Source of the DNA: a virus
DNA: 64,000 bases
IMG/VR virus record: IMGVR_UViG_3300049846_003387
Coordinates: 1 to 64,000 of that record
Strand: one strand, 5' to 3'
The notes below the pieces were generated by a model. It was not told the DNA's origin and searched no databases. It worked only from the letters and a program-made list of their open reading frames with translations. The position numbers and the translations under genes are program-made. Shown piece after piece: positions 16,513 to 63,662 of the stretch (within the stretch, counting starts at the first letter, position 1; every line of letters begins with the position of its first letter).

Positions 16513-17046
16513 ATGCCCAAGAAAAAGAAACCCAAGTCAACCGAAAACGATGCTAATTTAGAACAACATCTTTGGAAAGAGGTTATTCTTCAACCAGAGT
16601 TGTTTGCATCTGTTGTTGATATTCCAGATGCTTCTGATGAAGAGATAGCAGTTATAAAAGATGCTAAGTTACTGATTAGTGAACTACTCTTTGATCGAGT
16701 TGTAGAGTTAGCAACTCATCATTTTACCAAGCACCAAAATATAGTATTAGCCCTAATTCAGGCACCAGACAGAACATATAACGAAATAGCTGAGATCATT
16801 GGGATAAATTATACAGGTGTTTCTCACGCTATTAAAGGGATAAAATCCCCTAAACACAGTAAATTTCATGGTGGCTATGAAAAAAAGCTTCGTAAGATTT
16901 GTCAAAAAGACAAAGAATGTACGGAATACATAGCCTGTATTCGTGAGCTTCGCAATAATGATCCTGAGTATGCTATCCAAGTACTCATCCAGTATGACGA
17001 CAATCCCGAGTTTTGGCAAAACTATCGAATAGATCAATTGTATTGA
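16513..17046 (+). CDS. Helix-turn-helix protein, possible transcription regulator
   Basis: A 177-residue protein with a Lys-rich start. The segment ALIQAPDRTYNEIAEIIGIN, then YTGVSHAIKGI (about residues 79-110), resembles the region-4-type helix-turn-helix of sigma factors or small terminases. The flanks are helical and acidic, then basic. It stands at the boundary between the metabolism genes and the block whose gaps carry TATTGAT, so a late-gene activator or specificity factor is an attractive guess. Small terminase is the alternative. Its ribosome site is in a hairpin. Confidence 0.6.
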   Translation: MPKKKKPKSTENDANLEQHLWKEVILQPELFASVVDIPDASDEEIAVIKDAKLLISELLFDRVVELATHHFTKHQNIVLALIQAPDRTYNEIAEIIGINYTGVSHAIKGIKSPKHSKFHGGYEKKLRKICQKDKECTEYIACIRELRNNDPEYAIQVLIQYDDNPEFWQNYRIDQLY

Positions 17047-17047
17047 T
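17041..17047 (+). promoter_or_regulatory. TATTGAT element A (putative phage promoter)
   Basis: TATTGATTTTTTGTAT, overlapping the stop of the HTH gene and 99 bases before the next start codon. It is the first in a series found in gaps through the structural half. The 93-base gap also holds TAAGAT and TATAAA further on, so a sigma70-like reading is possible at this site. Confidence 0.5.
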
Positions 17048-17139
17048 TTTTTGTATATCTTTGATAAGATTATAAAATCTTTTACATGTAAGACTAATTT
17101 TATTATATTTTGCTCTGAAATACCAAGGAGTTATATCTC

Positions 17140-17637
17140 ATGCCTAGATTATCAAATCCAGATCTCGATCTTCAAAGTCTTTATGATCTTGCAGTGGACC
17201 AACCAAGCCTAGTAAAAACAGCTTCCTCAGGTCGATTAAAATTTGCAGAACATGCCCAAAGATTTTCTCGAATTGGCTTTGATCTCTTTAGGGACACTCA
17301 ATCCGAATTTATTTGGAAGCTTGAAAAAGATTCAGAGACAGGTGAGGAGTTCATAATTAGAACTGCAAACCTAGATCCAATGAAAAAATCTTCAGCATGG
17401 CAAGCTCTTACTGACTCTGGTAAAACCTCGATCGTACTTACCTATAAAGGACATCCAGTCAAGGCTTTTAAAAAAGCTGAGCTTCAATTTGATGAATCTA
17501 ATATAGATGAATGGCGACAATATTTAGTAGATAAAATTACTACTGACCCTACTTTTCTTAATAAAGTACTAGTTCAGGCAGGTGAGTCTCGTAAGCGACA
17601 AGTTTTAGGAAAGTTTCCTGAATTACTTCAAAAATAA
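17140..17637 (+). CDS. Hypothetical, probably virion-associated protein, 165 aa
   Basis: Not recognised. It has mixed helix and strand, with a central segment (SEFIWKLEKDSETGEEFIIR) of beta character and a helical, basic C-terminus. It is the first gene of the long block of late-looking genes, has an AAGGAG ribosome site, and follows TATTGAT element A. A structural role is inferred from position only. Confidence 0.6.
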   Translation: MPRLSNPDLDLQSLYDLAVDQPSLVKTASSGRLKFAEHAQRFSRIGFDLFRDTQSEFIWKLEKDSETGEEFIIRTANLDPMKKSSAWQALTDSGKTSIVLTYKGHPVKAFKKAELQFDESNIDEWRQYLVDKITTDPTFLNKVLVQAGESRKRQVLGKFPELLQK

Positions 17638-17660
17638 AAGCATTTTAATCCAAGGTCTTC

Positions 17661-19259
17661 ATGTCAAAACGAGACAAAATTAATAATACAATTGAGTCTT
17701 TTGAGCAACTTGGATTGAAAAAATTTGCTCAATCTCTTCGTAATATCCAAAAAATTCAACCTACTTTCTCCTTTAAAAAAGAACAAGAGGTTTTTGAAAA
17801 GTTATTGCAAATAGTAAATTATCTATCTAAAGTAGATAATTACGCTATATTGAATGAGAATTATCATCTTCCTGCCTACTCCACTACCTCCAATCGAAAA
17901 CATGTATATTTTTCTCAATTTCCCTTGCAAGGCTATACGAAACAGCAGATTATGGGAACTGGTCTTCCAGACTATCTAAAAAATTTTGTTACATATTATA
18001 TGAGTGCACGTAGCAAAGAACTTTACGGGCCTATCCGTAAAGAATATATGAATATAGCCAATCAATTGAGTGAAATTGCCACAGCAACAACAAAAATTTA
18101 TAAAAGAGTTTACAAACCTTTTACAGCTACGGTAGAGGATGGTGAGTCTTTCGTTTCTCCTAAAAAACAAAGATCGCCTTCTCAAGAATCTATAAGAACT
18201 GAAGCTAAAAATCTCAACTCCTACTTGAGACTAATGCAAAAATTCATTCTTAAAGTACAATCTGAATATATTCCTCTATATGAGGCTACTCTCCAAGAGA
18301 TTAAATCTAGGAAAGATAAAGATTCTATCAAAGAACTCCGTCAGATATGGAACGATCCTGATGAAGAAGAATCTTCTGTTTCACAGAGTGATGAGGTGCA
18401 AGACGATAAATTTCCTAAGCAAGAAACATCTAAAGTTATAAAAAGATCACCCTTTCAAAAAACTAAGAAACTTAAAGATAAGGATAAGGATAAGAGTGAA
18501 CCTGATCTTGAAGATGATTTGAGTATTTTCGAATCTTCTCCAAAAGAAGAGTCAACTGAGCCTTCTGCCTCGACCCTATCTCCAAGTAAAATTCAAGACA
18601 TTTTAAAGCGAGTACATAAAAAAGCTAATATCAATAAATCAGAGATTATATCTCAATTAGAAAATTTAACTATAGATTTTGCAAGAGTAAGAGATCAAGT
18701 TGAATCTAAAATAGCTGATCAATTAAAAATAACCCTTCCCGAATTCCGCTCTCGTTTCCAAATCGAAAACTACATCAAATCCTTCTTAGAAATAGATCCT
18801 ACGATGACGAAAATAGCTGATATTTTTAATCAAATTAGCAAGCAGGATGCTAGTAAAGAGGAAGAGGATACTGGCCTTTTAGTTCCTTCGGTTTCAAAGC
18901 GATACGAATCTAAAGCTGTAGAAAAACACGACTTTGTCAACCAAACTATTCGAGATGTAGTTGGTGGACGTTTTAGTTTTCAGCCTTATAGATCAACCTC
19001 TCTTCATCTCTATTCTCATAGAGATATACTAAATGCATGGGATTACATGCATCGACAACTCGCTTCACATTACAATACATTCTTAAGCACAGTAATTAGA
19101 ATGAATGAGCGTCAATCACTTCTGCAAACAGACGACAACATTTCTTCTCTTCAAACAGATCTTGAAACTTCTTCAAAGAATATGAAAAGTCTAGTCTTAA
19201 TAGAACAAGAACTACAACATCGCCTAGTTAAGGCCATTGGAGCTTTGAATAATGTCTAA
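17661..19259 (+). CDS. Large helical protein with charged linker, 532 aa
   Basis: The N- and C-terminal thirds are predicted helical (for example FEQLGLKKFAQSLRNIQKIQ), separated by a low-complexity Lys/Glu/Asp/Ser linker around residues 235-310. The C-terminus has coiled-coil character. No enzyme motif is seen. It overlaps the next gene by 8 bases. Probably a virion or assembly protein by context. Confidence 0.6.
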   Translation: MSKRDKINNTIESFEQLGLKKFAQSLRNIQKIQPTFSFKKEQEVFEKLLQIVNYLSKVDNYAILNENYHLPAYSTTSNRKHVYFSQFPLQGYTKQQIMGTGLPDYLKNFVTYYMSARSKELYGPIRKEYMNIANQLSEIATATTKIYKRVYKPFTATVEDGESFVSPKKQRSPSQESIRTEAKNLNSYLRLMQKFILKVQSEYIPLYEATLQEIKSRKDKDSIKELRQIWNDPDEEESSVSQSDEVQDDKFPKQETSKVIKRSPFQKTKKLKDKDKDKSEPDLEDDLSIFESSPKEESTEPSASTLSPSKIQDILKRVHKKANINKSEIISQLENLTIDFARVRDQVESKIADQLKITLPEFRSRFQIENYIKSFLEIDPTMTKIADIFNQISKQDASKEEEDTGLLVPSVSKRYESKAVEKHDFVNQTIRDVVGGRFSFQPYRSTSLHLYSHRDILNAWDYMHRQLASHYNTFLSTVIRMNERQSLLQTDDNISSLQTDLETSSKNMKSLVLIEQELQHRLVKAIGALNNV

Positions 19260-20265
19260 CTTAACTCCATCCTCAATACATAATAAATTAAGAAAATTAA
19301 CTTCTCACCTTGATAAGCGCTTAATTAAATTAGAAAAATCTCTCTTTACAATACAAAAACAAGTTTTGCGGTTTAAGAAAGACTTCCCACCAGCAGTACC
19401 ACAAGTAAATATGCTCTCTCGAATAGAGAAGTTGCGCTCTTTAATATCAACAGAACGTCGATCGCTTCAAGTTTTGAAGCGATCTAAACCAGGGTTTTTA
19501 GCTGCGATCGTAGACTTTGTTTACAATTGGACCATAAGTTCGAGATCTCCTTCTCAAAAAGAAAAATATTTGCAAAATCTCAAGCAACTGAATGAACTTC
19601 AGGAGACAGAATCGTTAGGATCTCAAATGGGAGCTGACCCCATCAGCGAAGTGATCAAGCTATTTTACAATAAATATAAACCGGACAACAAAATAGACAC
19701 AAATTCCTTCAGAAGGATACTAGGATCATTGATGTCTTCAGAAAGAGCAATACAAGATTTAGTAAATCTTGTCTCAGGTAGCTTTGAGAATAAAAACAAT
19801 GCTAAGCAAGCAATTCACGATATTGTTGTAAGTTTGGAAAGACATCTCACTACTCTTCATCCTGAAAATCAGGTAGCAATAACAAGTAAATTTGATCGAA
19901 TTCGTCAATATTTAGGTAATGTTAAAACAGCAGGTGCTGAGGATTTTGAGCAATTTATTCAAAAGACACAAGCACACTTAGAAGGCTATATTATAGAGAA
20001 TAACAACTTCAAAAATCGCCTTGAAGAAATCACAAACAACATTGGAAAGCTACCAACACTTTTAATGAGCAGGGACGACTTAGCTTTGATTCAAAAATAC
20101 CAAAGTTATATTTCAGAACTACTTAGTAGTGATGGAAATGGAATTCAAGCTAAACTTCTTCAATTAAGACAGGAATTTGATAGACTACAAGTTGAGTGTG
20201 AAAAAATGAAAGCGAGTGAGCAAGTTACTCAAAATCCAATCAAATCTACTCCGGAAGTAGAATGA
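19252..20265 (+). CDS. Coiled-coil protein, 337 aa
   Basis: Long heptad-like helices at the start (LRKLTSHLDKRLIKLEKSLF) and end (IQAKLLQLRQEFDRLQVECE) with a helical middle. No catalytic motif seen. The start overlaps the previous gene; the stop is followed by a 66-base gap with TATTGAT element B. Structural or scaffolding role possible, not shown. Confidence 0.6.
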   Translation: MSNLTPSSIHNKLRKLTSHLDKRLIKLEKSLFTIQKQVLRFKKDFPPAVPQVNMLSRIEKLRSLISTERRSLQVLKRSKPGFLAAIVDFVYNWTISSRSPSQKEKYLQNLKQLNELQETESLGSQMGADPISEVIKLFYNKYKPDNKIDTNSFRRILGSLMSSERAIQDLVNLVSGSFENKNNAKQAIHDIVVSLERHLTTLHPENQVAITSKFDRIRQYLGNVKTAGAEDFEQFIQKTQAHLEGYIIENNNFKNRLEEITNNIGKLPTLLMSRDDLALIQKYQSYISELLSSDGNGIQAKLLQLRQEFDRLQVECEKMKASEQVTQNPIKSTPEVE

Positions 20266-20274
20266 TTTTGAATG

Positions 20275-20281
20275 TATTGAT
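20275..20281 (+). promoter_or_regulatory. TATTGAT element B (putative phage promoter)
   Basis: TATTGATCATATAAG in the 66-base gap, 57 bases before the next ATG. TATAAATT lies 23 bases further on. Confidence 0.5.
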
Positions 20282-20331
20282 CATATAAGTAGTATTAGGA
20301 AATCTATAAATTAGTTCATAGGAGGATATAA

Positions 20332-21924
20332 ATGTCTGACTCTAATAATGTCTTGGAGCGTATTGAGCAATTAGCTCAGGAGCTTTTTTTACAAGAGCGT
20401 AAAATATATACAGCTGGACTCTTAGTTCCTCGCTTCAAGGAAGCTGCTGCTCGAAATCGACACGATATTACAATTAATCAAGCAGCTTTTGTGTTAGATC
20501 AAGTAGCATCAAAGAATCCTTCTAGAGAGATTTCTGCTAGTGATCTTAAAGAGTTAGCTAGTACTTTTTACTCTCCTTCTACTAATTTTCATCACGAATT
20601 TGCTGATCTTCTTGAAGATGAGCAAGCATCAATATCACAAAAACAAGCTTCGCGATTAGATTTTCATGGACATGCTAGAGACATAACTCTCAATGAAACA
20701 TACAAGAAGGCAGAAGTTATTGTAGATGATTCTCTTCTTCTTACTCCAAGTGAAGAAGGTTTAGCTTCTCAAGCAGTTCAACTCATTAACGATGAATTAG
20801 CTCAAACTGGTCTTGTTGTGCAAGCTTCAAGTGTTTTGAAATTTAAAGATAATTCAAAATTGGTCTTTCAAACCAAGCTAAAAACTGCTTCAAATGAAAT
20901 CGAAGTTGTTGTTCCAGTAGAAGTAGTCGATGAAGTTCCACTTTTTCCTCAAGTTCTTGCCACAACAGAAAAAGTCTATACTTTAGATAATCAAGGATTG
21001 AGTGATCTCATTGCTGATACCGAAGCATCTACCTTACGTAAACGCGCAGAACATATAAGTTCTTTGCGTACTGCAGAAGATTATGATATGGCTCTTCGAA
21101 GCGATACAAGAGGTCAATATGCAGAAGAAGTGGATGAATTTGAGGTTGAAGCACCTAAAGTAGTGTCTCTTGGACATACAGAAATAGAACAAGTTTTAAG
21201 AGATGCGGTTTTAGCAAAAGATTCTAAATATACTGAGCAGACTCGATATGCTGGTCGTGAATTAGTAGAGTCAGAGTTAAATCAAATGGGTTTCTTTAAT
21301 TCTCAAGTCAAATTTGATGGTGATTATGAACATGGCTTAACTTACAAAGCTAGTTTAAATACTGGTGTAGGCAGATTAGACGTGGTAATGCCTGTTGAAA
21401 TCCATCCTTCTCAAAAAATTATGCTTCCTCCTTCGCAATTTAAGGCAGCCAATCAAGAAGAGATTCACACTCTCACAAAAGAAGCAGTACTACAAGTAGC
21501 TAGAGTTACTAAAACAGCTTCAGCAGAGGTGTCCCCTCTACTGTTTGCCATGAGTTATCCTGACTTGCGTAAGCAACTCAAAATTGCAGCTCAAAATCGT
21601 AAACATAAAACTGCACAGCAAATCATCAATATTGTTGATGAAAAGTTTGGTGATTATTATCGAAATGCTGCTACAGATGATTACCAAACTTGGCTTGAAG
21701 AGTCTTCAGCTAATTACGAATCTCGATGTGGTGGTTGTGATCACTATGCTCCTAAGACTGCTCAAGTTCATAATGATTACTGCAACTTACTCAAAACAGC
21801 TTCTAAGAATGTCCAACAAGATCAACAAACTGATATTTGTGTGCGCTCAACTTTCGCCAACCTAGAAGAGGCGCAAACCTTTCTCGACAATGGAGAAAAT
21901 ATTAAGATCAATTGGGAAGATTAA
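20332..21924 (+). CDS. Virion-type protein with internal duplication and Cys cluster, 530 aa
   Basis: Residues about 145-215 and 285-365 are two copies of one unit: helix ending in LINDELAQTG or LVESELNQMG, then hydrophobic strands ending VVVPVEV or VVMPVEI. Near the C-terminus CGGCDHYAP, HNDYC and DICV make a probable metal site. It has a perfect AGGAGG ribosome site, so is likely made in quantity. No family recognised. Confidence 0.6.
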   Translation: MSDSNNVLERIEQLAQELFLQERKIYTAGLLVPRFKEAAARNRHDITINQAAFVLDQVASKNPSREISASDLKELASTFYSPSTNFHHEFADLLEDEQASISQKQASRLDFHGHARDITLNETYKKAEVIVDDSLLLTPSEEGLASQAVQLINDELAQTGLVVQASSVLKFKDNSKLVFQTKLKTASNEIEVVVPVEVVDEVPLFPQVLATTEKVYTLDNQGLSDLIADTEASTLRKRAEHISSLRTAEDYDMALRSDTRGQYAEEVDEFEVEAPKVVSLGHTEIEQVLRDAVLAKDSKYTEQTRYAGRELVESELNQMGFFNSQVKFDGDYEHGLTYKASLNTGVGRLDVVMPVEIHPSQKIMLPPSQFKAANQEEIHTLTKEAVLQVARVTKTASAEVSPLLFAMSYPDLRKQLKIAAQNRKHKTAQQIINIVDEKFGDYYRNAATDDYQTWLEESSANYESRCGGCDHYAPKTAQVHNDYCNLLKTASKNVQQDQQTDICVRSTFANLEEAQTFLDNGENIKINWED

Positions 21925-21939
21925 GAGAAAGAGGATTTT

Positions 21940-23771: not shown

Positions 23772-23935
23772 CCGAAATTGCTGATGCAATTCAACGTGAC
23801 CATTCTGACATCGATGAAGTAGCTGCATACAAAATGGCCTGGGAAAGCTACTGTTCTTATGTCAATCCATCGTATGATGGATGTACTGCTAAGGGCAAAT
23901 CTAAGCGCAAGAGTCCTAAGTCTGCACGCAACTAA
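23768..23935 (+). CDS. 55-residue frame, separate gene or -1 frameshift extension
   Basis: From GTG 23768 (overlapping the upstream TGA) it reads MTEIADAIQRDHSDIDEVAA and ends in a basic KSKRKSPKSARN tail. The same frame is open upstream back through both A-tracts, giving KKKSKKKSSKPKKVTEIADA, which looks like real protein. So it may be the C-terminus of the preceding protein joined by -1 slippage, or a coupled small gene started at GTG. No good ribosome site for GTG is seen. Confidence 0.5.
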   Translation: MTEIADAIQRDHSDIDEVAAYKMAWESYCSYVNPSYDGCTAKGKSKRKSPKSARN

Positions 23936-23944
23936 GAGGTAATT

Positions 23945-27999: not shown

Positions 28000-28001
28000 A
28001 T

Positions 28002-28775: not shown

Positions 28776-28783
28776 AGTACATA

Positions 28784-28790
28784 TATTGAT
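28784..28790 (+). promoter_or_regulatory. TATTGAT element C (putative phage promoter)
   Basis: TATTGATTTTTTAGTAA in a 46-base gap, 38 bases before the next ATG. The ribosome site GAGGAG starts about 18 bases after the element, which leaves no room for a -10 box downstream. If this is a promoter, the element itself must be the core. Confidence 0.55.
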
Positions 28791-28821
28791 TTTTTAGTAA
28801 TGCTAAAAGAGGAGTAACTAC

Positions 28822-29517: not shown

Positions 29518-29526
29518 GGAAGAGAA

Positions 29527-38811: not shown

Positions 38812-38818
38812 TATTGAT
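38812..38818 (+). promoter_or_regulatory. TATTGAT element D (putative phage promoter)
   Basis: TATTGATTATTTAAGA in a 45-base gap, 42 bases before the GTG start of the third fibre gene. Confidence 0.5.
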
Positions 38819-41014: not shown

Positions 41015-41021
41015 TATTGAC
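41015..41021 (+). promoter_or_regulatory. TATTGAC variant element E
   Basis: TATTGAC at this gap. Here TTGACA (41017-41022), a 16-base spacer and TATAAA (41039-41044) also make a sigma70-like promoter. Transcription from it would begin near ATG 41051, so the mRNA might have almost no leader. Confidence 0.45.
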
Positions 41022-41279: not shown

Positions 41280-41286
41280 TATTGAT
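41280..41286 (+). promoter_or_regulatory. TATTGAT element F (putative phage promoter)
   Basis: TATTGATATTTGACAT in a 67-base gap, 63 bases before the ATG of the acidic protein. TTGACA lies within the same stretch. Confidence 0.5.
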
Positions 41287-43160: not shown

Positions 43161-43167
43161 TATTGAT
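43161..43167 (+). promoter_or_regulatory. TATTGAT element L (putative phage promoter)
   Basis: First of two elements in the 122-base divergent gap before the terminase gene: TATTGATCTTAAATTATAG, 103 bases from ATG 43264. It overlaps the start region of the opposing sigma70 promoter. Confidence 0.4.
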
Positions 43168-43202: not shown

Positions 43203-43209
43203 TATTGAT
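43203..43209 (+). promoter_or_regulatory. TATTGAT element G (putative phage promoter)
   Basis: TATTGATTTTCAATTC, 61 bases before ATG 43264 of the terminase gene; second of two in this gap and closer to consensus. Confidence 0.5.
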
Positions 43210-43263
43210 TTTCAATTCAATTATGTAGTTTCTACATCCAAAAACCATCACTGATTGGATCCA

Positions 43264-45108
43264 ATGGCTGATTTCTTCTCTCAATTTTTAAATAACTTAG
43301 ATATCGTAGAGTTTGTGGAGAATAGCCTCATCCTCGAAGGATCGCCATTCCTATACTCTAACAACGGTCGAGACTTTGCTAAGCAGATTATGCGCTATGG
43401 AGCGCACATAATGCCGTATAATAAGAGCTCTAAGCCTATGATTGTAGTTAAGGGAAGGCAGGTCGGACTTTCAACGCTATCAGCCGCTATGAGCCTATAT
43501 TTCATGCATGCTGAATCGCACAAGTCGTTTTTACATTGTTTTCCAGAAATTGGTCAGGCTAGACGTTTTAGTACTAAAAGATTGATAGAACTCATTGAGG
43601 ATTCACAAAAACATGGCAAGCTACCAAGCAATTTCTTAAATACTTCATCTACTGCAACTCAAAGTCAAGTACAAAAGGATTTTCACAAGAATAATACTCT
43701 TTACGTCGAAGGTACTTCCCTTGACGGTCGTCGTCTAAGAGGTGTTTCCATCTCTGGACTATGTATGATGGATGAGTTTGCCTCATTAACTGAAGCTGCC
43801 TACAGAAACGTCTTAGAATGTTCCGCTAACTCGCACTTTGGCTACATAAATAAAGGGAAGCAACTTCCTCATCTAGTCTTCGGAACACCTGAGGCCGAAG
43901 GAACCCTATTTGAAAACCTATGGAAAAAATCTAATCAACAAGAGTTCTTTTTCAAGTGTCCTCACTGTGGTCATGAAGTCAATCTTTTCTATGATGTTCG
44001 CAATCGCGACTCCGTTGATACAAATCTTTTTGAAGGTACTTTAGTAACTTGTCGAACAAAAGATAATAAGGGTTGTGGTAAGCCTTTTGATAAAATTAAG
44101 GAAATGTCCAAAGGTTCTTGGAAGGCTACAATTTATACTGATTGTGAATATGTAGGTTTTTATGTCCCTCAGTTTTTAAACGGATCAATTACTAAAGAAT
44201 CGATCGATCAAAAGTTTAAAGAATATCACACCAAGCAGTTCTATAACGAGGTGCTTGGAAAATTCTATTCATTTGAAGATGAAGTTCTAACTAAGAATGA
44301 GATTATTAGGCTCACTACAACCAATCCCAAAACTACTGACTGGGATTTTCCTCCTCATATTATTGATAAGCAAACCTTTATGGGAATTGACTGGGGAGCT
44401 CGAGTTTCGGGTGTTGAAGATACAGGATCAGGTTCCTATACAGTTGTTACTGTTATGAGTGTTCTTCCTACAGGACATTTAAAACTCGAGCACTGTAGTA
44501 GGTTATCTACTAACGATACAGATGAAAAAGTTAAGCAAGTTACTGCTTTGATGAAAAAATTTAATGTTTTGAAATGTGTTGCAGACAAAGGCTTTGGTTA
44601 CGATATAGGTCAACGTCTTCAGAAGTTAGTAGGACCAGATAGATTCTCAATGTGCGAATGGGGTGGACATACCAAAAAGGCGGTTTCTTATGATAAGGAA
44701 ATTAATACTATAAGAGCCGATAAACATGTAGCTCATGAATTATTTTTTGACAATTTGAAACAAGGTAAATTTTGTTTTCCTTATTCATTAAGAGCTGAGC
44801 AGGAAATAGAGTGGCTGTTAGATCATATGACCAACATAGAAGTAATTAATGTAGAGAAAAATGGAATGATCAAAAAAGAGTTCCGAAAAAAAATGGGAAA
44901 AGAAACTGACGGGCTAGCTAGTTTAATATATACTTACACGGCATTTCAATTTTTTAAAACAAGTGGATTTGCATCAGATATAGTTACAAAAGGAATGGGC
45001 GGAAATCGAACAGGACTACAACCTTACTTAGTTAGGCCAAGTAGTAGTCGAATCGGAAGCCACAATGTAACTAAAAATTATTCAAGACACGACAGGAGAC
45101 GTAGATGA
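43264..45108 (+). CDS. terL: Terminase large subunit
   Basis: A 614-residue DNA-packaging motor. ATPase: Walker A-like KGRQVGLST (63-71), Walker B LCMMDEF (166-172). A zinc-finger insert follows, CPHCGHEVN and CRTKDNKGCGKPF (232-275), of the type found in GpA-like terminases. Nuclease domain (RNase H fold): MGIDWGA (373-379) and CVADKGFG. It cuts and pumps phage DNA into proheads. ATG 43264 is preferred; TTG 43255 is also in frame and neither has a strong ribosome site. The portal gene is 4.4 kb downstream. Confidence 0.92.
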   Translation: MADFFSQFLNNLDIVEFVENSLILEGSPFLYSNNGRDFAKQIMRYGAHIMPYNKSSKPMIVVKGRQVGLSTLSAAMSLYFMHAESHKSFLHCFPEIGQARRFSTKRLIELIEDSQKHGKLPSNFLNTSSTATQSQVQKDFHKNNTLYVEGTSLDGRRLRGVSISGLCMMDEFASLTEAAYRNVLECSANSHFGYINKGKQLPHLVFGTPEAEGTLFENLWKKSNQQEFFFKCPHCGHEVNLFYDVRNRDSVDTNLFEGTLVTCRTKDNKGCGKPFDKIKEMSKGSWKATIYTDCEYVGFYVPQFLNGSITKESIDQKFKEYHTKQFYNEVLGKFYSFEDEVLTKNEIIRLTTTNPKTTDWDFPPHIIDKQTFMGIDWGARVSGVEDTGSGSYTVVTVMSVLPTGHLKLEHCSRLSTNDTDEKVKQVTALMKKFNVLKCVADKGFGYDIGQRLQKLVGPDRFSMCEWGGHTKKAVSYDKEINTIRADKHVAHELFFDNLKQGKFCFPYSLRAEQEIEWLLDHMTNIEVINVEKNGMIKKEFRKKMGKETDGLASLIYTYTAFQFFKTSGFASDIVTKGMGGNRTGLQPYLVRPSSSRIGSHNVTKNYSRHDRRRR

Positions 45109-48402: not shown

Positions 48403-48409
48403 TATTGAT
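48403..48409 (+). promoter_or_regulatory. TATTGAT element H (putative phage promoter)
   Basis: TATTGAT followed immediately by the hairpin at 48410-48450 in the 81-base gap, 67 bases before the ATG of the holin-like gene. The hairpin makes this copy less convincing, or makes it an attenuated promoter. Confidence 0.35.
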
Positions 48410-49516: not shown

Positions 49517-51283
49517 ATGACTGATAATAAGCAAAAACCGTCTCGTAGACGTACAGCTCGAAATTCATCTAATCCAGATGCAACTATGATCAAAACAAAT
49601 CAGGCTGCTCCAGTTGGCTTGAGTCCTAGGTTAGGAGCTGCTTCTGCTTCTGTCATTAGAACTCAACCTAAAGTATATTCTCCAATATATAATGATTCTA
49701 ACCTAAATTTACCTCGTGATATACGTACCCAAAATGCGTGGAATCGCAATTACTTCGCCACTAATCCTCTTTGTAGATCTGCAATTACTCTTCACGCTTC
49801 CTATACTACAAGCAAATTTAAATTAATATGTAAAGATAGAAAAATTAAGCAATTTTTTGAAGATATGCTTGATAAAATGAATTTTTCCAATACTCTTTTA
49901 GAGATGGGAATAGAGTTTTGGAAATTAGGAGAGGTTTTTCCTTATGCTGAACTAGACGAAGATCATGGCACTTGGCAGTATGTTGTTGTTCATAATCCTG
50001 ATTTTATTCATGTTCCACCTCCTAATCCCCTACAGAAAGATCCTATCATAACTTTAGTTCCTGATGAAGCCCTGAAAAGACTAGTTACTTCTACTAATCC
50101 TTTGGATGTCATGTTACGCGAACATATTCCACCAGAGGTTCTCCTTCATATTCAAAAAGGAGAGCCTATTCCACTTGATAATTTTAATGTTTCTCACTTA
50201 AAGATGCTCTCGTCTCCATATGATACTCGTGGAACGTCAATCATAACTTCGTGCTACCGCGATCTAATGCTGTATGACAAGATTAGAGAAGCTAAGATTG
50301 TTCAAGCAGATAATTTCATCAATCCAATTACACTAGTTAAAGTTGGTAATGAAAATTACAAACCTACTGATGACGACATAAGACAGTGGCAAGAACAAGT
50401 AGTCGACTCAATGGGAGATCAAGCTTATACAATTGTTACACATGGCCTAGTTGAAATATCAAAGATCACTAACTCAGGTCAAACTCTTGATATGAATACT
50501 GACCTCGAAGAGGCCAAGAAGAACATAATGATTGGACTTATGGTCCCTTCAGCACTCTTCGATCAAGACTACGGATCGTTCTCCAACGGCTCCATAGGAT
50601 TACAAGTTCTCAAAGATAGATATAAAAACTTCCAACTCCAACTCAAAAAATGGATCGAAAGAAAAATCTTAGAACCTATTGCTAAAATACAGGATTTTTA
50701 TGTTGTAGAAGGTGGAGAGAGAAAACTACTGGTTCCTACAGTTGAGTTTGAACGAATTTCTCTCAAAGAAGCAGATAACTACATCAACAATTTAGCTAAC
50801 CATATTGGAGATCCGTCTTCTCCCGGTTCAGGTAAGGTATCATTACAAACATTCTTAGAATTATTAGATACAGATTATGAAACTGAAAAAGCTCGCCTAA
50901 GAATGGAGGCTCGTGATCAAATCGTTCTTCAAAAAGAAATCAAGGCAATGCAGAAGATGGATATTGAAGCACTCAAAACTCTTGCTGAAAATTCCCCAAT
51001 TCAGGATCCAGGTGAAATTGATTCTTTAGAAAAATCTCTAGATATAGAATCCGAAGCAGATGAAATGGATGACAGTGGTGGTGCTGGCGGAGGAGATTTA
51101 AGTGGAGGTCTTGATTTGGGTGGTAGTGCAGGTGGAGGTGGTGGAGGAGACTTCGATTTAAGTGGTGGAGATTTAGGTGGAGAAGCTGATTTGGGTGGTG
51201 GACCTTCTCCAGAAGGTGGAGCACCTGAAGGTGAAGTTGGTGGCGGTGAACCTACTCCAACAGCCGAGCCACCTCCTACATAA
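49517..51283 (+). CDS. Portal protein
   Basis: A 588-residue portal-type protein. Recognisable features: AWNRNYFATNPLCRSAITLH near the start, LLEMGIEFWKLGEVFPYAEL, HLKMLSSPYDTRGTS, and the helical stem LMVPSALFDQDYGSFSNGSI with LKDRYKNFQLQL. The portal forms the dodecameric DNA gate at one vertex and docks the terminase. The last 75 residues are an unusual Gly/Asp/Pro-rich tail (GGAGGGDLSGGLDLGGSAGG), probably disordered. Followed closely by the prohead protease region, the usual order. Confidence 0.88.
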   Translation: MTDNKQKPSRRRTARNSSNPDATMIKTNQAAPVGLSPRLGAASASVIRTQPKVYSPIYNDSNLNLPRDIRTQNAWNRNYFATNPLCRSAITLHASYTTSKFKLICKDRKIKQFFEDMLDKMNFSNTLLEMGIEFWKLGEVFPYAELDEDHGTWQYVVVHNPDFIHVPPPNPLQKDPIITLVPDEALKRLVTSTNPLDVMLREHIPPEVLLHIQKGEPIPLDNFNVSHLKMLSSPYDTRGTSIITSCYRDLMLYDKIREAKIVQADNFINPITLVKVGNENYKPTDDDIRQWQEQVVDSMGDQAYTIVTHGLVEISKITNSGQTLDMNTDLEEAKKNIMIGLMVPSALFDQDYGSFSNGSIGLQVLKDRYKNFQLQLKKWIERKILEPIAKIQDFYVVEGGERKLLVPTVEFERISLKEADNYINNLANHIGDPSSPGSGKVSLQTFLELLDTDYETEKARLRMEARDQIVLQKEIKAMQKMDIEALKTLAENSPIQDPGEIDSLEKSLDIESEADEMDDSGGAGGGDLSGGLDLGGSAGGGGGGDFDLSGGDLGGEADLGGGPSPEGGAPEGEVGGGEPTPTAEPPPT

Positions 51284-51285
51284 GG

Positions 51286-51292
51286 TATTGAT
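51286..51292 (+). promoter_or_regulatory. TATTGAT copy I in a 12-base gap
   Basis: TATTGATAATTTGAC lies directly after the portal stop and only ten bases before the TTG start. It may be chance; as a promoter it would give a nearly leaderless message. Confidence 0.25.
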
Positions 51293-51295
51293 AAT

Positions 51296-51952: not shown

Positions 51953-51961
51953 GGATTTTAC

Positions 51962-52114
51962 ATGCTTAAGAAAACTATTATCGCTGAACTTCAGATAGAA
52001 GCTATCTCAGATAAAACTACACTAACCATCGCTGCTATTGATGAAAATACAGACAAGGATAAGAAGAAAAAATCAAAGGACCCATCAGATGACAAAAAAA
52101 AATTCACGAAGTAG
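51962..52114 (+). CDS. Small Lys/Asp-rich protein, 50 aa
   Basis: MLKKTIIAELQIEAISDKTT, then a hydrophobic patch and a Lys/Asp tail ending KKKFTK. AAGGA precedes the ATG at good spacing. It overlaps the start of the following gene in another frame by 26 bases. No function apparent. Confidence 0.55.
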   Translation: MLKKTIIAELQIEAISDKTTLTIAAIDENTDKDKKKKSKDPSDDKKKFTK

Positions 52115-54200: not shown

Positions 54201-54211
54201 AAGGAAAATTT

Positions 54212-57361: not shown

Positions 57362-57382
57362 TAGGTAGACATGAAATTACTG

Positions 57383-57425
57383 CCCCCAGGACTCGCCCCT
57401 TAAAAGGCCCCTGGGGGTTACTTTT
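57383..57425 (+). terminator. GC-rich terminator after the prohead protease gene
   Basis: CCCCCAGG (57383-57390) pairs with CCTGGGGG (57410-57417), with an inner CCTTAAAAGG hairpin and TTACTTTTATT after it. It is the most GC-rich short stretch in this AT-rich window. Confidence 0.8.
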
Positions 57426-57460
57426 ATTAGCGACAAAATTCTGTTTTTTAGAATAATTAC

Positions 57461-57467
57461 TATTGAT
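57461..57467 (+). promoter_or_regulatory. TATTGAT element J (putative phage promoter)
   Basis: TATTGATTTTTTACTATT, 39 bases before ATG 57500 and directly after a terminator, just where a new transcript must start. Same extended form as elements A and C. Confidence 0.6.
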
Positions 57468-57499
57468 TTTTTACTATTCCAAGCAACAACTGGAGAAAA

Positions 57500-57994
57500 A
57501 TGATGAGCAATAATAAAATCTTAAAAGCCCAGCAATCTTTACGATTTGCTCAATCTCTTCTTGGTGAAATTACTCGAACTCCAGAAGCTGTTAAGCTTCT
57601 TCAAGAAGCATTAAAGGCTGAATTCCAACAATGGGATCTTTATTATGCATATAAAGATCAATTGAGGGGCCTGTCTAGAGAACCTATTGCTGAGCATTTT
57701 CAAGAACATGCTCAAGATGAAGCTGATCACATTGAAATTCTTCAAAGATATCTAGTTAGTATGGGTGAGCATCCAACAAAACAACGTGAACCTATTCCTG
57801 AAGTTGCTGCCGACATTATGAAAATTATAGCTTTGCAATATAAGTTTGAAATCAAAGCTGTTAAAACTTATCAAAGTCTATTAATTCAATTAGAAGATAA
57901 TGATCCTCTGAGAATAGAAATAGAGAATATTCTTGCTAAAGAAATGGAACATGCTCAAGATTTAGAATTGCTTTTCAAACAAACTAGAAAGTAA
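57500..57994 (+). CDS. Ferritin-like diiron protein (bacterioferritin/Dps-type)
   Basis: A 164-residue four-helix protein with all six ligands expected at a bacterioferritin ferroxidase centre: E41, E74 and H77 (DEADH), E117, E148 and H151 (KEMEH). Gaps of 33 and 43 residues equal those in bacterioferritin; the last gap is 31 instead of 33. QLRGLSREPIAEHFQEHAQD is typical of the fold. It could store or oxidise iron, or protect DNA as Dps does. It heads a transcript with strong TGGAG ribosome site after element J. No haem-binding Met could be assigned. Confidence 0.8.
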   Translation: MMSNNKILKAQQSLRFAQSLLGEITRTPEAVKLLQEALKAEFQQWDLYYAYKDQLRGLSREPIAEHFQEHAQDEADHIEILQRYLVSMGEHPTKQREPIPEVAADIMKIIALQYKFEIKAVKTYQSLLIQLEDNDPLRIEIENILAKEMEHAQDLELLFKQTRK

Positions 57995-57997
57995 GAG

Positions 57998-59452
57998 ATG
58001 GATTCTCCAGATAAAAAAGATAAGTCAACAAGTAGTATTCCAAATGAGGCTCATAGTAAGGCAACTAAATGGGTTGAAGAAGCCATAAACGACTCTTCTG
58101 TTCTTAATGTTATTGAAGATAAATTACAACCTCTAGTAGTTAGTGCTACCGATGAATTCTTAGAAGAAAACAAAGAAAAGGCTGCTATCTACGCTTCCAA
58201 TCCTGAAGTTCTCATCAAAGATCTCAAGGAATTTTATGGTTTTAAGAACTACTTCAAATACGTCGAATACGCAATAGATGCAGCTCTAGCAGTATCTGGA
58301 ATACTATCAATAATTTCTGTATTTTTCACTGCTGGTGCAGCTGCTCCAGCTGCTGCAGTTGGCCTAGCAAGTCGCAAGGCAATATCATATGCTACTAAGA
58401 AGTTTATGAAAAAACAAGGATTAAATCTTCTTGCGAGAGTTTCGAGCAAAATCGTTCTGAAGAAAATTACTAAAGAAGGTCTAAAGCAGGTAGGTGTAAA
58501 TCTAAGTAAATATTTTTTACGATCAGCTATGTATAACGTACTCTACATAGTGAGCATCAATGCCATATTCAAAACAATAGAGGATGTTGGCATAGAAGCA
58601 ACCAAAAATATCCTGCGAGATAAGGGAAATCAATTAGGGATCCCACAATCTCTAATAACCCAATTGTTACATGCAGAAAATGATAATGCTTTTAGAAGAA
58701 TTTTAAAAAATGTTCATGCCGGAATTTCCAAAGACTTGCAAGAGCTTTTTACAACTGAAGCCGGATTCCGCAAATTAGCTTTAGGTGCTGCTTTTAGTAA
58801 ATTATGGAAGACAAAAGAGATTGCTCAAGCTATAGAGCGAGGCGATCTAGAAAATAAGCTTAAGCAATTAAGCAAAGATCCAAAGTATAGAAAGCCTTTT
58901 GATCCAAACTCTCCTTCTTCGGCATCACAACAAGCAGTCAAGCAACAATTAGAGCGATCAATCAAGAAATCTAAAATTCCTGTTCGTTTGCAACCTGTCT
59001 ATCAGGAACACCTTAGTAAACTAACTACTCAAATACCACCACAAAGAGTTGGAGAAGTAATTGAGCCTAAGATTGAGCTGGCTAATTTAACTACTGATCA
59101 AGTTGTAGACGAGCTTTATGAGGTTGCAACTCTTGAATTTATTCAAAAGAATAGAAGTAGATTGGCTCTTCAACAAGTTACTAAACTTCTTGGTGAAGCT
59201 CTAGATACTAGAAACATTTCATTAGAATCTTTAAAAAGATCTACAAAACAGAACGACTTAATTGATATAGTCAATACCCTCTTAATATATAAGACAATTT
59301 ATATTAAACAACTATTAAAGAAGTTGTCGCTTGGAGGTCAAGATAGTAAGATGCTCGAAGCCCTTAAAAATGATATGATGAAGCATGCTGGTACTGATAC
59401 ATATAAGGCAAATTTATCTAAGCAATATTTTGGAGTAGGTCGTGGCATATAA
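57998..59452 (+). CDS. Membrane-associated or hydrophobic helical protein, 484 aa
   Basis: The hydrophobic segment AALAVSGILSIISVFFTAGA with AAAPAAAVGLA (about 95-125) and a second one, MYNVLYIVSINAIF (about 180), sit in an otherwise charged helical protein. The second half is hydrophilic. It could be an ejected internal or tape-measure-like protein that enters the membrane, but is short for a tape measure. Family unknown. It ends overlapping the next start. Confidence 0.55.
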   Translation: MDSPDKKDKSTSSIPNEAHSKATKWVEEAINDSSVLNVIEDKLQPLVVSATDEFLEENKEKAAIYASNPEVLIKDLKEFYGFKNYFKYVEYAIDAALAVSGILSIISVFFTAGAAAPAAAVGLASRKAISYATKKFMKKQGLNLLARVSSKIVLKKITKEGLKQVGVNLSKYFLRSAMYNVLYIVSINAIFKTIEDVGIEATKNILRDKGNQLGIPQSLITQLLHAENDNAFRRILKNVHAGISKDLQELFTTEAGFRKLALGAAFSKLWKTKEIAQAIERGDLENKLKQLSKDPKYRKPFDPNSPSSASQQAVKQQLERSIKKSKIPVRLQPVYQEHLSKLTTQIPPQRVGEVIEPKIELANLTTDQVVDELYEVATLEFIQKNRSRLALQQVTKLLGEALDTRNISLESLKRSTKQNDLIDIVNTLLIYKTIYIKQLLKKLSLGGQDSKMLEALKNDMMKHAGTDTYKANLSKQYFGVGRGI

Positions 59453-59651
59453 TAAGCCTCTCAAATCAAAAAAGAAAAATGACACTGAAAAGTATCATAA
59501 AGCAGCAAAAGATATTATAGAGCCATTAACAAGAAATATACGACAAAAAAGAAAAGACCAAACTAACGAAGAAATTAAATCCTTTCAAGATGCTTTGGAT
59601 AAAGATCCAACACTCCTAACTAGAGCAAAAGCAGCGGTACAAAAATGGTAA
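59442..59651 (+). CDS. Small basic protein, 69 aa
   Basis: Lys/Arg-rich helical protein (AYNKPLKSKKKNDTEKYHKA...). GGAGTAGG upstream serves as ribosome site inside the previous gene. Overlaps both neighbours. No function known. Confidence 0.6.
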   Translation: MAYNKPLKSKKKNDTEKYHKAAKDIIEPLTRNIRQKRKDQTNEEIKSFQDALDKDPTLLTRAKAAVQKW

Positions 59652-60046
59652 ACATTAAGCAGCTTCAACAAAAAATAGCATTAGCTCAACAATTTATTGC
59701 CGTAGCACAACAAACAAGGATTAAACTTTTTCTTGATGATGATACTGAAGCACCAGTAAGACAAGAATTATTCAAAGGTTACGATGTTTGGGTTACAACC
59801 CCTGAAGAAGCTATTGAATATTTAAGTAGAGGTAATGTTAGTCACGTTAGTTTAGATCACGATCTTGGACTTGAACCTGAGAGCCGCAATGGCTATATGG
59901 TTGCAAAATGGATCGAAGAAGCAGCATACAATAGTGAAATTCCTCCTCTAAAGTGGAGAGTTCATAGTTTTAATCCTAAAGGAAAAAGCAATATGATTAC
60001 TGCCTTACAGAATGCAGATAAATTTTGGAGCAGAGGTGAAGAATGA
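59645..60046 (+). CDS. Cyclic-phosphate processing receiver-domain protein (cPRD-like)
   Basis: A 133-residue protein: short helical lead, then RIKLFLDDDTEAP (acidic pocket, 26-37), YDVWVTTPEEAIEYL, HVSLDHDLG (67-75) and VHSFNPKGKSNM (106-117). LDDD, SLDHDLG and HS.NP.G together match the receiver-like family that Aravind and colleagues proposed to process 2',3'-cyclic phosphates in RNA repair. A related degenerate receiver domain is the alternative. It lies among structural genes, overlapping genes on both sides, so is expressed late. Confidence 0.75.
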   Translation: MVNIKQLQQKIALAQQFIAVAQQTRIKLFLDDDTEAPVRQELFKGYDVWVTTPEEAIEYLSRGNVSHVSLDHDLGLEPESRNGYMVAKWIEEAAYNSEIPPLKWRVHSFNPKGKSNMITALQNADKFWSRGEE

Positions 60047-60273
60047 CAAATACCTATAAAAATATTCAACAACTTAATCAAATAGCAAGCTATCTTCAGC
60101 AAATTGCTGATCCTTATCATCAATCAGAAACTTGGATAGATGATAAGTTGGTAGATATGGTCAATGCATTAAGAGATATTAGATCTTTTCTCGAATACGA
60201 AACAACTCGCGGCAATTATAATAATCCTACTATAGATATTACTAATACTACAAGGAGTGCTAATAATGAATAA
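60043..60273 (+). CDS. Hypothetical protein, 76 aa
   Basis: Helical (NIQQLNQIASYLQQIADPYH), with an Asn/Thr-rich tail. ATGA overlap with the receiver-domain gene suggests coupled translation. Not recognised. Confidence 0.6.
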   Translation: MTNTYKNIQQLNQIASYLQQIADPYHQSETWIDDKLVDMVNALRDIRSFLEYETTRGNYNNPTIDITNTTRSANNE

Positions 60274-61606
60274 ATTTATTTTTGCAGACTTTAAAGATTT
60301 TCAAAATAATCTTAAAAAATATCTTGAAAAGGCTAAAGAAGAACAAGCTAAACCTAAACAGTCTAGTGAACCTAAAGAGAAAAAGAAATACACTCCCACC
60401 CCCAAAGATTCAAGAAACTATAAGCGAGTTGAGGATCCCAACTCTCCTCGCGGATATCGTTTCGAATTGAAAACGAAAGATGATTACATAGAAGATAAAC
60501 CTACTAGGAGAATTACTAGAGAAGATAAAAAAGGTGACGAATATACTGTCCTTATTCCTGGCAAAACTAAGGAAGAACAAATTAAGGAACGTAATGCAAA
60601 ACAAAAGAAAAGAGAGAGTTTTGAAGTAGCTAAAGCAGGTAAAAAAGTTCTTATAGAAGGTAGAGATGACGATGAGATAGCTACTATTAGAGAAATGCTG
60701 CTCGCTATAGCCAATCAACCTAACGAGAAGAAAAGTCCCCATATACAACGTGAAATCAATTTCGCCAAGAGCGTCTTAGGCGAAGATGAGTCGGGAACCT
60801 ACTGGCTAGATAAAGAATCTAGTATTTTAAGAAATATTGTTAAATTTGCATCAAGTGATCAAATGAAGTATGACATTATATTGAAGGCCCTTGCTGATAT
60901 GGAAGAAAAGGGACTACAAGATACTCCTAAATACGAACAGGCAAAAAAAGCTTTAGAAAAATTAGAAAAAAGAATTGATGAACTTGCAACCTTAGAAACT
61001 GAAGAGGCCAAGCAAAAGTCTGAATCGACTCTTATAGAAGATCCTAAAATCTTTTCAATGAAGCCTAAAAAAGAAGTAGATTTATCTAAAGCTCCTAGAA
61101 TGGTAAGAACTAAAGATCAACTTTCTCCAGAAGAGTTGGCACAAATCGAAATGAGAGAAAATCGTCTTACTGAAGAAGGTGAGCAACTACCTGATGATGA
61201 ATTCAAACCAGTTACCTCCTATCTAGGTTGGAAACAAAAAACTATAGACGATCAAGTAGTATATGTGATTTCTACCAAGCAACTTGCAGCTATTTCACAT
61301 CTCTATGAAAACGCTCAAATGAGAGCGCAAGGCTTAGATCCTCAAAAGGTGCGTTCTAAAGAGAATAAGCCATTGCCTTATGTTGATGACGAAACTCCTA
61401 AGAAAAAAGAAAAATCTCGTCTTGAGCAACAACTAGAGAAATTGAAAAATAAAAAGAAGGAAGAAGAAGGTCCCTTACTATCTCCTGAAGAAGAGGAATT
61501 CCTCAATTTAGATACAAGTATTTTTGATACTAAAAAAACTAGCAAGATCAAGTCCCTACTAACCCTTATTAAGCAAGCACAAAACTCTCTTAAAAATGTT
61601 AGATAA
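60266..61606 (+). CDS. Charged helical protein, 446 aa
   Basis: Extremely Lys/Glu-rich with several disordered stretches (EEQAKPKQSSEPKEKKKYTP) and coiled-coil segments. The end KIKSLLTLIKQAQNSLKNVR is amphipathic. ATG 60266 follows AAGGAG at nine bases. Composition suggests scaffold or internal head protein; no family recognised. Confidence 0.6.
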   Translation: MNKFIFADFKDFQNNLKKYLEKAKEEQAKPKQSSEPKEKKKYTPTPKDSRNYKRVEDPNSPRGYRFELKTKDDYIEDKPTRRITREDKKGDEYTVLIPGKTKEEQIKERNAKQKKRESFEVAKAGKKVLIEGRDDDEIATIREMLLAIANQPNEKKSPHIQREINFAKSVLGEDESGTYWLDKESSILRNIVKFASSDQMKYDIILKALADMEEKGLQDTPKYEQAKKALEKLEKRIDELATLETEEAKQKSESTLIEDPKIFSMKPKKEVDLSKAPRMVRTKDQLSPEELAQIEMRENRLTEEGEQLPDDEFKPVTSYLGWKQKTIDDQVVYVISTKQLAAISHLYENAQMRAQGLDPQKVRSKENKPLPYVDDETPKKKEKSRLEQQLEKLKNKKKEEEGPLLSPEEEEFLNLDTSIFDTKKTSKIKSLLTLIKQAQNSLKNVR

Positions 61607-61778
61607 GTACAATAAACATCCTTTATTTCAACAATATCTTGAGGCCTATGATAGATATATCGAGGCTTCTAAGGAGATGTATGAAATTAGAGATGAGATT
61701 CTTCAAGATCAAACAAGAGAAGCAGCGCTTTTAAAGATTAGACAAGCACAGTCTGAAGTACTACGTTGTCTAGAGTAA
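61596..61778 (+). CDS. Small helical protein, 60 aa
   Basis: LDKYNKHPLFQQYLEAYDRY and onward forms one or two helices. The ATG lies inside the previous gene's last codons. No function apparent. Confidence 0.6.
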   Translation: MLDKYNKHPLFQQYLEAYDRYIEASKEMYEIRDEILQDQTREAALLKIRQAQSEVLRCLE

Positions 61779-61780
61779 AT

Positions 61781-62566
61781 ATGAATCAGATTAGAAAAGG
61801 AATGAAAACTTACAACCTCTCCATTGGAGGTTTTTATGGTTTCTGGCAAGTTCTCCAGAAAAATGGCAAAGTTCTATATGTGAATATAGATGGCTTAAGA
61901 TATCATAACGATTTGGTTAGAGATCATGTTTATCATTATGATCTTGCAAAAGCCTTTAGAGATAATCAAGTACGTCTAATGCAATTTAGGGAGGATGAGT
62001 TATATCAAAAGGCTCATATTGTCAAATCCATGATATTAAATTATTTCGGTGACTGTGCTAGAGTTTCAGCTCGCTCTTGTTCTATCAAGTCAATTTCTAG
62101 TGATCAGAGCAAGGTATTTTTTCAGGAAAATCATCTAATGAATAATAGGTATGGGAAAAGTTATGGTCTTTTTTTAGGTGATAGCCTTCTTTGTGCTTTA
62201 TCTATAATAAAGAAAGGGGATGGATTTGAGATTGCTCGGTTTGCTACTAAGGTTGGTTATCAAGTACAAGGTGCATTTTCTAAGCTATTAAAACACGTAG
62301 AGGAAACTCACCAACCCACCTTCATCGAGAGCTATTGTGACTTACGGTACTCAAGTGGTATAAGTTATGAAAAATGTGGATTTAGATTACAGCATATTAC
62401 CTCTCCTGGCTTTGTATGGACTGATTTTAAGGCTACCTATCATAGATTAAAATGTAGGGCTAATATGGATGAAAGAAAACTAACTCAATCAGAGTATGCT
62501 GAAGAGCTCAAATGGCATAAAATCTTTGATGCAGGACAAGCCAAATATAGAAAGGATCTCCAATGA
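61781..62566 (+). CDS. Homing-endonuclease-associated (GNAT-like) protein, 261 aa
   Basis: RLMQFREDELYQKAHIVKSM then ILNYFG...VSARSC matches the segment that follows the nuclease in many phage endonuclease-like proteins. YGLFLGDSLLCALSI, EIARFATKVGYQVQGAFSKL and ESYCDLRYSSGISYEKCGF match the GNAT-like domain of the same proteins. The usual nuclease or HNH part seems missing. ATG 61781 is preferred over TTG 61766. A selfish element remnant or DNA-modifying accessory is possible; activity unknown. Confidence 0.65.
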   Translation: MNQIRKGMKTYNLSIGGFYGFWQVLQKNGKVLYVNIDGLRYHNDLVRDHVYHYDLAKAFRDNQVRLMQFREDELYQKAHIVKSMILNYFGDCARVSARSCSIKSISSDQSKVFFQENHLMNNRYGKSYGLFLGDSLLCALSIIKKGDGFEIARFATKVGYQVQGAFSKLLKHVEETHQPTFIESYCDLRYSSGISYEKCGFRLQHITSPGFVWTDFKATYHRLKCRANMDERKLTQSEYAEELKWHKIFDAGQAKYRKDLQ

Positions 62567-63240
62567 TATTACGACCTTACCTAGCAGATAGTAATGTTTG
62601 GTCTGCCCCCGCTGATCCCTCCTCAACATTCCAAGCTGGAAACATAGCTGGTCTTATTGAAATAAACGGTGAACTGTTTGTCACAGTATCTGATGGTGAC
62701 ACGATCCCGCCCATAGGTGTTATTGACGACAACAGAACCACCTCCTTTACAGGCACTGTAGTTGATGAAGTTATCATTGTACCAGCAGCTTCACAAGTAG
62801 TAAATAATGTTCTTGTAAGTACAGTAGATGTCATGGGCCCTTTACAAGAAACCAATATTATTGAATCCTCTTTCTCCTCTACTTTTGATCTTATCTTGAA
62901 TCCAAAAAAGGGAACCGTCGTTATTCCAGCTGGAACACCTTTGAACTACGATGATGGTAACGTGATGGGATTTGAAGTAGTAGTTTCGTATAGATACCAG
63001 ATTGTAGATTATCCTGGAGACGACTCTACAAGTGGCTCAGGAAAGATTAGCATTCATTTCAACAGAGGCATCTTCGTGACTGACGTATTCGACGTACTCT
63101 CTACCTATACACCTGGCTGCGCACTTTATGTAAATAGTGAAGGAATGCTTACCTCACAAGAAACAAAGAGCCCAGTTGTAGCAATTGCTCTTCAACCAGC
63201 CAGTGCTCTTAATAATGAACTTATGTTCATGTGGTTATAG
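62563..63240 (+). CDS. Head decoration-like structural protein, 225 aa
   Basis: Almost entirely beta-rich and low in Lys. SSTFQAGNIAGLIEINGELF, VTVSDGDTIPPIGVIDDN and the long central strands resemble phage head-decoration or fibre-base proteins with the AG..AGLI...SDG..PIGVI.DN pattern. ATGA overlap with the gene before. Major capsid protein is not otherwise visible in this window, so a coat role cannot be excluded. Confidence 0.6.
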   Translation: MILRPYLADSNVWSAPADPSSTFQAGNIAGLIEINGELFVTVSDGDTIPPIGVIDDNRTTSFTGTVVDEVIIVPAASQVVNNVLVSTVDVMGPLQETNIIESSFSSTFDLILNPKKGTVVIPAGTPLNYDDGNVMGFEVVVSYRYQIVDYPGDDSTSGSGKISIHFNRGIFVTDVFDVLSTYTPGCALYVNSEGMLTSQETKSPVVAIALQPASALNNELMFMWL

Positions 63241-63654
63241 ATGAGCAAACAATCTAAGAAGAGTCAAATCAAGATAGGTGATATTTTTAGTGCTATCACT
63301 ATTGTAGAAGTAAAAACTTCAGAGTTTAGAAAAGTCTTAGGTAAGTGCTCTTGTGGAACTACTAGATTCTTCGATTACGTGTCGCTCCTCAACGGAAGGA
63401 TTAAGTCTTGTGGTTGCAAGAAGGCTGAATTTGCTGCTTCAACAAATATGACTAAATATGGAACTACGAACTTTAATCAATCTACTCAAGGTAGAGAAGG
63501 CATCAAAGCTTTTTGGAATACCTATAAAGATACTGAAGCCTACAAGTTGAGAGAGCAAAAAAGAGAGAAAACTTTAAAAGAGAAATACGGCGACATTCGA
63601 TCAACCTCCCAACTACCCGAAGTAAGACAAAAACAACTAGAAGTTTATTTCTAA
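63241..63654 (+). CDS. Zinc-finger DNA-binding protein of endonuclease type, 137 aa
   Basis: KIGDIFSAITIVE, then GKCSCGTTRFFDYVSLLNGR-IKSCGC (33-59), matches the zinc-binding lead domain of many phage HNH/AP2 endonucleases. NMTKYGTTNFNQS then resembles a NUMOD-like DNA-recognition motif. No catalytic domain follows, so it is either a truncated homing endonuclease or a stand-alone DNA-binding factor. Starts immediately after the preceding stop. Confidence 0.65.
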   Translation: MSKQSKKSQIKIGDIFSAITIVEVKTSEFRKVLGKCSCGTTRFFDYVSLLNGRIKSCGCKKAEFAASTNMTKYGTTNFNQSTQGREGIKAFWNTYKDTEAYKLREQKREKTLKEKYGDIRSTSQLPEVRQKQLEVYF

Positions 63655-63655
63655 C

Positions 63656-63662
63656 TATTGAT
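63656..63662 (+). promoter_or_regulatory. TATTGAT element K (putative phage promoter)
   Basis: TATTGATTTATAGATC in a 58-base gap, 57 bases before ATG 63713. Confidence 0.5.

Follow-up and report, generated by a model that had tools for sequence, protein, structure and literature searches.

The window, that is the whole stretch of DNA that was analysed (64,000 nucleotides), corresponds to positions 1-64000 of a 65,931-base IMG/VR virus record, a contig that is a fragment and holds an incomplete genome. Its non-structural part encodes a protein with a head domain of the poly(A) polymerase/CCA-adding type (916-2265) and an RlaP-type nucleotidyltransferase (14713-15777), and genes for RecA, primase and Hsp20 lie near these nucleotidyltransferase-type genes. 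A three-gene cassette is present as two diverged tandem copies (3201-4535 and 5580-6922), the products of which measure 185/182, 115/114 and 149/153 aa. The structural genes include those of the terminase large subunit and the portal protein, and a ferritin/rubrerythrin-like gene is found among them (57500-57994), with a counterpart 63% identical in the relative G001 described below. The 7-mer TATTGAT recurs in the gaps between genes; a gap that does not carry it contains a terminator-like hairpin with a T-run (12571-12591), located 3' of a small zinc-ribbon-like open frame. The sites and the features discussed with them are as follows.

9653..10453, - strand: Hjc-like Holliday-junction resolvase gene, an apparent regulon member on the opposite strand
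10484..10490, - strand: TATTGAT ahead of the Hjc/PDDEXK resolvase-like gene; from its first base, 24 nt to the Shine-Dalgarno and 37 nt to the ATG
16513..17046, + strand: gene of a 177 aa HTH protein, sigma-70 region-4-like family; candidate transcription factor for TATTGAT
17041..17047, + strand: TATTGAT, with the HTH gene's stop codon inside it; precedes gene 17140-17637
20275..20281, + strand: TATTGAT before gene 20332
28784..28790, + strand: TATTGAT; Shine-Dalgarno at 26 nt and ATG at 38 nt from its first base
38812..38818, + strand: TATTGAT before gene 38854
41015..41021, + strand: TATTGAC, a one-base variant, before gene 41024
41280..41286, + strand: TATTGAT before gene 41343; kept at the orthologous junction in G001
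43161..43167, + strand: TATTGAT, first of two copies in the divergent gap upstream of the terminase gene
43203..43209, + strand: TATTGAT, second copy in the divergent gap, ahead of the gene for the terminase large subunit; kept in G001
43255..45108, + strand: terminase large subunit gene, 3' of the TATTGAT pair in the divergent gap
48403..48409, + strand: TATTGAT before gene 48437; kept in G001
49517..51283, + strand: portal protein gene, product 63% identical in the relative G001
51286..51292, + strand: TATTGAT after the portal gene; kept in G001
57382..57418, + strand: terminator-like hairpin, GC-rich and with a T-rich tail, preceding the TATTGAT at 57461
57461..57467, + strand: TATTGAT, 3' of the terminator-like hairpin; before the ferritin-like gene 57500
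63656..63662, + strand: TATTGAT before gene 63713

Intergenic enrichment of TATTGAT

With a hand-made gene list, 12 copies of TATTGAT were counted in 11 ORF gaps (1,793 gap positions), as compared to 12 copies per 63,387 sense positions in coding DNA, which corresponds to a 35-fold higher density in the gaps (Fisher p 4e-13). Dinucleotide-shuffled gaps contained TATTGAT in a mean of 0.49 gaps and a maximum of 3, against the 11 observed, and the best of all 7-mers reached at most 7 gaps over 1000 gap shuffles. A mechanical ORF caller again returned TATTGAT as the top gap 7-mer, with 11 gaps, and the other copies of the motif, located within genes on both strands, occur at about the chance rate. 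An earlier, sequence-only reading of this DNA had put the chance expectation well below one copy and had called for the gaps to be compared with shuffled sequence and with coding DNA; in both comparisons TATTGAT is enriched on this contig, and it is the leading 7-mer of the gaps. For most copies, the stop codon of the preceding gene is at most 15 nt away. Neither TACTAAT nor TATTAAT occurs in the gaps of the window.

The eleven positions reported in the sequence-only reading were all correct, as were the TATTGAC spelling at 41015 and the extension of three copies (17041, 28784, and 57461) to TATTGATTTTTT, and one further copy, at 51286 in a gap of 12 bases, had been missed. The claim that no gap before 17 kb contains the element fails once, at the minus-strand copy at 10490-10484, which occupies the only gap between two minus-strand genes in the window and is oriented towards the downstream resolvase gene. 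This exception favours the promoter hypothesis. Beyond the end of the window, the first gap also contains a copy, at 65398, an out-of-sample success. Two apparent gaps, 23772-23944 and 51953-52037, carry no TATTGAT; they are not real exceptions because both are filled by short open frames.

Conservation in relatives and the sister motif TACTAAT

A search with the portal protein retrieved a relative of 33.8 kb, G001, whose portal and terminase are 63% and 55% identical, respectively, to those of the window. When the terminase alone or the HTH protein alone served as query, no close relatives were found, and the portal profile had no match in genome_contigs, so that no host is named. G001 has 12 coding-strand copies of TATTGAT and a single one on the opposite strand, and among its gap words, too, TATTGAT ranks first. 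At four junctions that are orthologous between the window and G001 (before the 41343 gene, before the terminase gene, after the 45695 gene, and after the portal gene), the box is identical at 7 of 7 positions, while the flanks match at 25-45%, which is near background. The conservation in relatives that the sequence-only reading had suggested looking for is found at these junctions, and the wider clade carries a sister motif. TATTGAT is not enriched in G002, G003, and G004, which are distant records.

The major capsid protein of G001 matches 334 IMG/VR stretches, on contigs of up to 340 kb; the 80 matches kept are 62-69% identical (G001 itself apart). About 330 more relatives, all phage-G-like jumbo phages, came to light in this way. 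The closest cultured phage is Bacillus phage G, whose major capsid protein is 53% identical to that of G001. In 50 non-redundant loci of these relatives, CTACTAA, TACTAAT, and ACTAATA lead among the gap words that are not ribosomal. TACTAAT occurs in 48 of 358 gaps, as compared to 8.4 expected, with 50 sense copies against 4 antisense and a 15-fold excess over coding DNA. It is the top or a near-top gap 7-mer in G013, G014, G015, and G019, each taken singly, and TATTAAT is prominent in G008. TATTGAT itself has no strand preference in the wider-clade relatives (19 vs 17). The TATTGAT of the window thus appears to be a lineage variant of a clade-wide TAYTRAT element, the two spellings being read as homologous because they share a place behind the HTH gene and the same ribosome-site geometry. 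In a literature search, neither TATTGAT nor TACTAAT was found described as a phage promoter.

Candidate reader proteins

Homologs of the HTH protein encoded at 16513-17046 are present in 13 of 22 relatives. Matches to Sigma70_r4_2 and to LuxR-type HTH models were obtained in 11 of the 12 aligned members of the family; for the Sigma70_r4 model, the protein of the window scores below the curated cut-off and several homologs score above the Pfam cut-off. The alignment shows the window member to be divergent, its recognition helix included, and comparison of its fold model gave no significant match. In 9 of 13 homologous loci, the HTH stop codon has TACTAAT or TATTAAT no more than about 20 nt away, a count that includes two near-identical pairs (L111/L112 and L115/L116) and therefore represents about seven independent loci. 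The activator role that the sequence-only reading had proposed for this protein remains plausible, in that the family is conserved and sigma-region-4-like and its gene directly precedes the element in the relatives too. It is weakened by G008, G013, and G018, which carry the element family and in which the HTH gene was not found, and the protein is best regarded as a candidate.

The other protein family of interest comprises proteins of 256-280 aa, some with a cysteine-rich insert, whose sigma-70 region 2 scores above the curated cut-off; the family occurs in 11 of 25 records. Their genes are located at G015:C1:116457-117251, G014:C1:159963-160787, G019:C1:74705-75499, and G023:C1:105313-106131, and in seven more records. 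All 11 records also carry the HTH gene (Fisher p 1.5e-4, kinship uncorrected), and two of four members of this sigma family (A6-type) match region 4 as well. On the 66 kb contig of the window, which is a fragment, no region-2 sigma gene was detected, and neither the HTH gene nor an A6-type sigma gene was detected in G013 and G018, both of which have the element; G018 encodes a different sigma, of 217 aa. A search of 14 relative contigs, among them those of 340, 316, 222, 211, and 206 kb, revealed neither a T7-type nor a multisubunit RNA polymerase. PF00562 had no match in these contigs, whereas a promoter of the phiKZ/AR9 type would require phage-encoded beta/beta' subunits. Given this negative result in the relatives, host RNA polymerase is probably used at the element.

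Geometry of the element and alternative readings

When the sites of the window and G001 are aligned, a single conserved block is followed by T-rich sequence, and the window's sites contain no second conserved block at -35/-10 spacing. Measured from the first base of the box, the Shine-Dalgarno sequence of the relatives starts at 20-26 nt in 15 sites and at 31 nt or beyond in the others, never closer than about 20 nt. A spacing of 20-26 nt excludes a -35 role at the sites that show it, including 28784 and 10490(-), in line with the earlier statement that the element is not simply a -35 box. A host sigma-70 promoter with the box at -35 would call for a -10 hexamer 16-18 nt downstream and a start about 35 nt after the box, which fits neither the alignment nor the ribosome-site distances. 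Of 43 terminators located in same-direction gaps, 14 have the box downstream, as compared to 3.9 expected, and 2 have it in antisense orientation.

Several finer features were also considered. A start site 12 nt after the box was not adopted, since the purine preference seen there in the window and G001 (15/19) fails to recur in the relatives (30/60). A start at 21/22 (T, then purine) fits the alignment columns but is hard to reconcile with ribosome sites starting as early as 20-26. When TACTAAT sites were scanned for a repeat of the box 18 nt further on, of the kind involved in sigma-dependent pausing, the score rose only weakly, at offsets 15 and 18.

In an alternative that we consider unlikely, the promoter would be bipartite: region 4 of a phage sigma would recognize the box as the upstream (-35) half, and a TGA about 21 nt later would form the downstream half. 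Phage 7-11 has such an architecture, GTAAtg-16-aCTA (PMC8948821), and the region 4 matches of two of the four A6 sigma members are in keeping with it. Of 60 TACTAAT sites, 18 have a TGA whose distance from the first base of the box is exactly 21 nt, as compared to 1.3 expected per position. The signal is real, but the count is inflated by orthologous sites among the relatives concerned (G013, G014, G015, G018, G019, G023, and G025). The 60 sites have a T at 21 in 44/60 and a purine at 22 in 43/60. However, TGA is found at 21 nt in only 3 of about 20 sites of the window and G001, and at the sites where the ribosome site lies at 20-26 nt (the 15 relative sites, 28784, and 10490(-)) that ribosome site would precede any start that such a -10 could give. 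That the box, like the MotA box of T4, is instead bound by an activator, the HTH protein, beside a weak sigma-70 promoter of the host seems quite unlikely, even though the HTH gene adjoins the first copy in the window and in the relatives, and the window differs from the relatives in the recognition helix as it does in the box. The box has no conserved -10 at constant spacing, the terminase region is not richer in sigma-70-like pairs than shuffles are, and the element family is present without the HTH gene in G008, G013, and G018.

The proximity of most copies to the upstream stop codon would suit an RNA-level signal for processing or translation control in intercistronic leaders. This is very improbable, however, given the copies in the divergent gap before the terminase and those after terminators, where little upstream transcript is expected. 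As for a chance or compositional artefact of AT-rich gaps, to which a short 7-mer in A+T-rich DNA might owe its recurrence, its probability is close to nil: it is already refuted by the gap shuffles, none of which came near the observed count, by the conserved orthologous junctions in G001, and by the emergence of the same top gap word in two contigs independently.

A probable late promoter with proposed phage sigma-type readers

As far as sequence evidence goes, the reading of the element as a phage-specific promoter, which was the main claim of the sequence-only reading, is well supported by strand specificity, intergenic place, conservation against diverged flanks, terminators upstream, the copies in the divergent gap, and the sister motif. 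We think it likely that TATTGAT is the core of a phage late promoter, acting as a -10-type box for host RNA polymerase together with phage sigma-type proteins; promoter activity, start position, reader protein, and late timing are all inferred here from these patterns. Across the clade, TA[C/T]T[A/G]AT followed by an A/T-rich stretch would constitute the late-promoter core of phage-G-like uncultured jumbo phages, with the box serving as a -10-type element and transcription starting roughly 6-15 nt downstream. Phage-encoded sigma-type proteins would direct host RNA polymerase to the box, the candidates in the relatives being the 256-280 aa sigma-70 region-2 protein and the small region-4-like HTH protein. 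In the window, the HTH candidate would be the product of 16513-17046, encoded directly before the first putative late promoter. A pure -10 box leaves one feature unexplained, the TGA that 18 of the 60 relative sites have at a constant 21 nt, and this counts against it.

More tentatively, and with a probability that we place clearly below even, the phage-G-like clade may drive its late genes through a two-protein sigma system, in which a region-2 protein acts with a distinct region-4-like protein to redirect host RNA polymerase to TAYTRAT, and the lineage of the window may have switched from TACTAAT to TATTGAT with a changed recognition helix. A survey reported that group 3 jumbo phages, to which this clade is related, lack RNA polymerases and sigma factors (PMC7824862), and against this statement the candidate sigma pair is the point of greatest interest in the analysis. 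The analysis gives this large clade a strand-specific, promoter-like word with a lineage-specific spelling, as well as candidate sigma-type proteins. Together they offer a concrete promoter/protein pair to test, and the word would mark late operons in many uncultured jumbo-phage genomes.

Comparison with known systems

Bacillus phage G shares related capsid and head proteins with these phages, and one of its genes is annotated as a sigma factor (gp69), but its first 100 kb show no enrichment of TATTGAT or TACTAAT. The late promoters of phage 7-11 combine GTAAtg-16-aCTA with the sigma gp47 (PMC8948821). They would resemble the present case in the use of a phage sigma with region 4, and the relatives show a second fixed-distance element, the TGA at 21 nt; by contrast, the ribosome-site distances at many sites here exclude a -35 role for the box. 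The middle/late promoters of phiEco32 carry the box tAATGTAtA, recognized by the sigma gp36, and use host RNA polymerase with starts 6-8 bp downstream (PMC8948821), whereas polymerase, sigma, and starts are inferred in our case. In both, a conserved box stands upstream of structural genes; here it is the one conserved block at the window's sites and is joined by the TGA at part of the relatives' sites. The box sequences differ and the phage groups are unrelated.

T4 late promoters consist of TATAAATA and are read by the sigma gp55 with gp33. Here again, one box, probably of the -10 type, would serve late genes, and a pair of phage proteins, one region-2-like and the other region-4-like, may be involved. 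The box is a different one, and the likeness drawn here is one of architecture. By analogy, the TATTGAT element would work like the late promoters of phiEco32 or T4.
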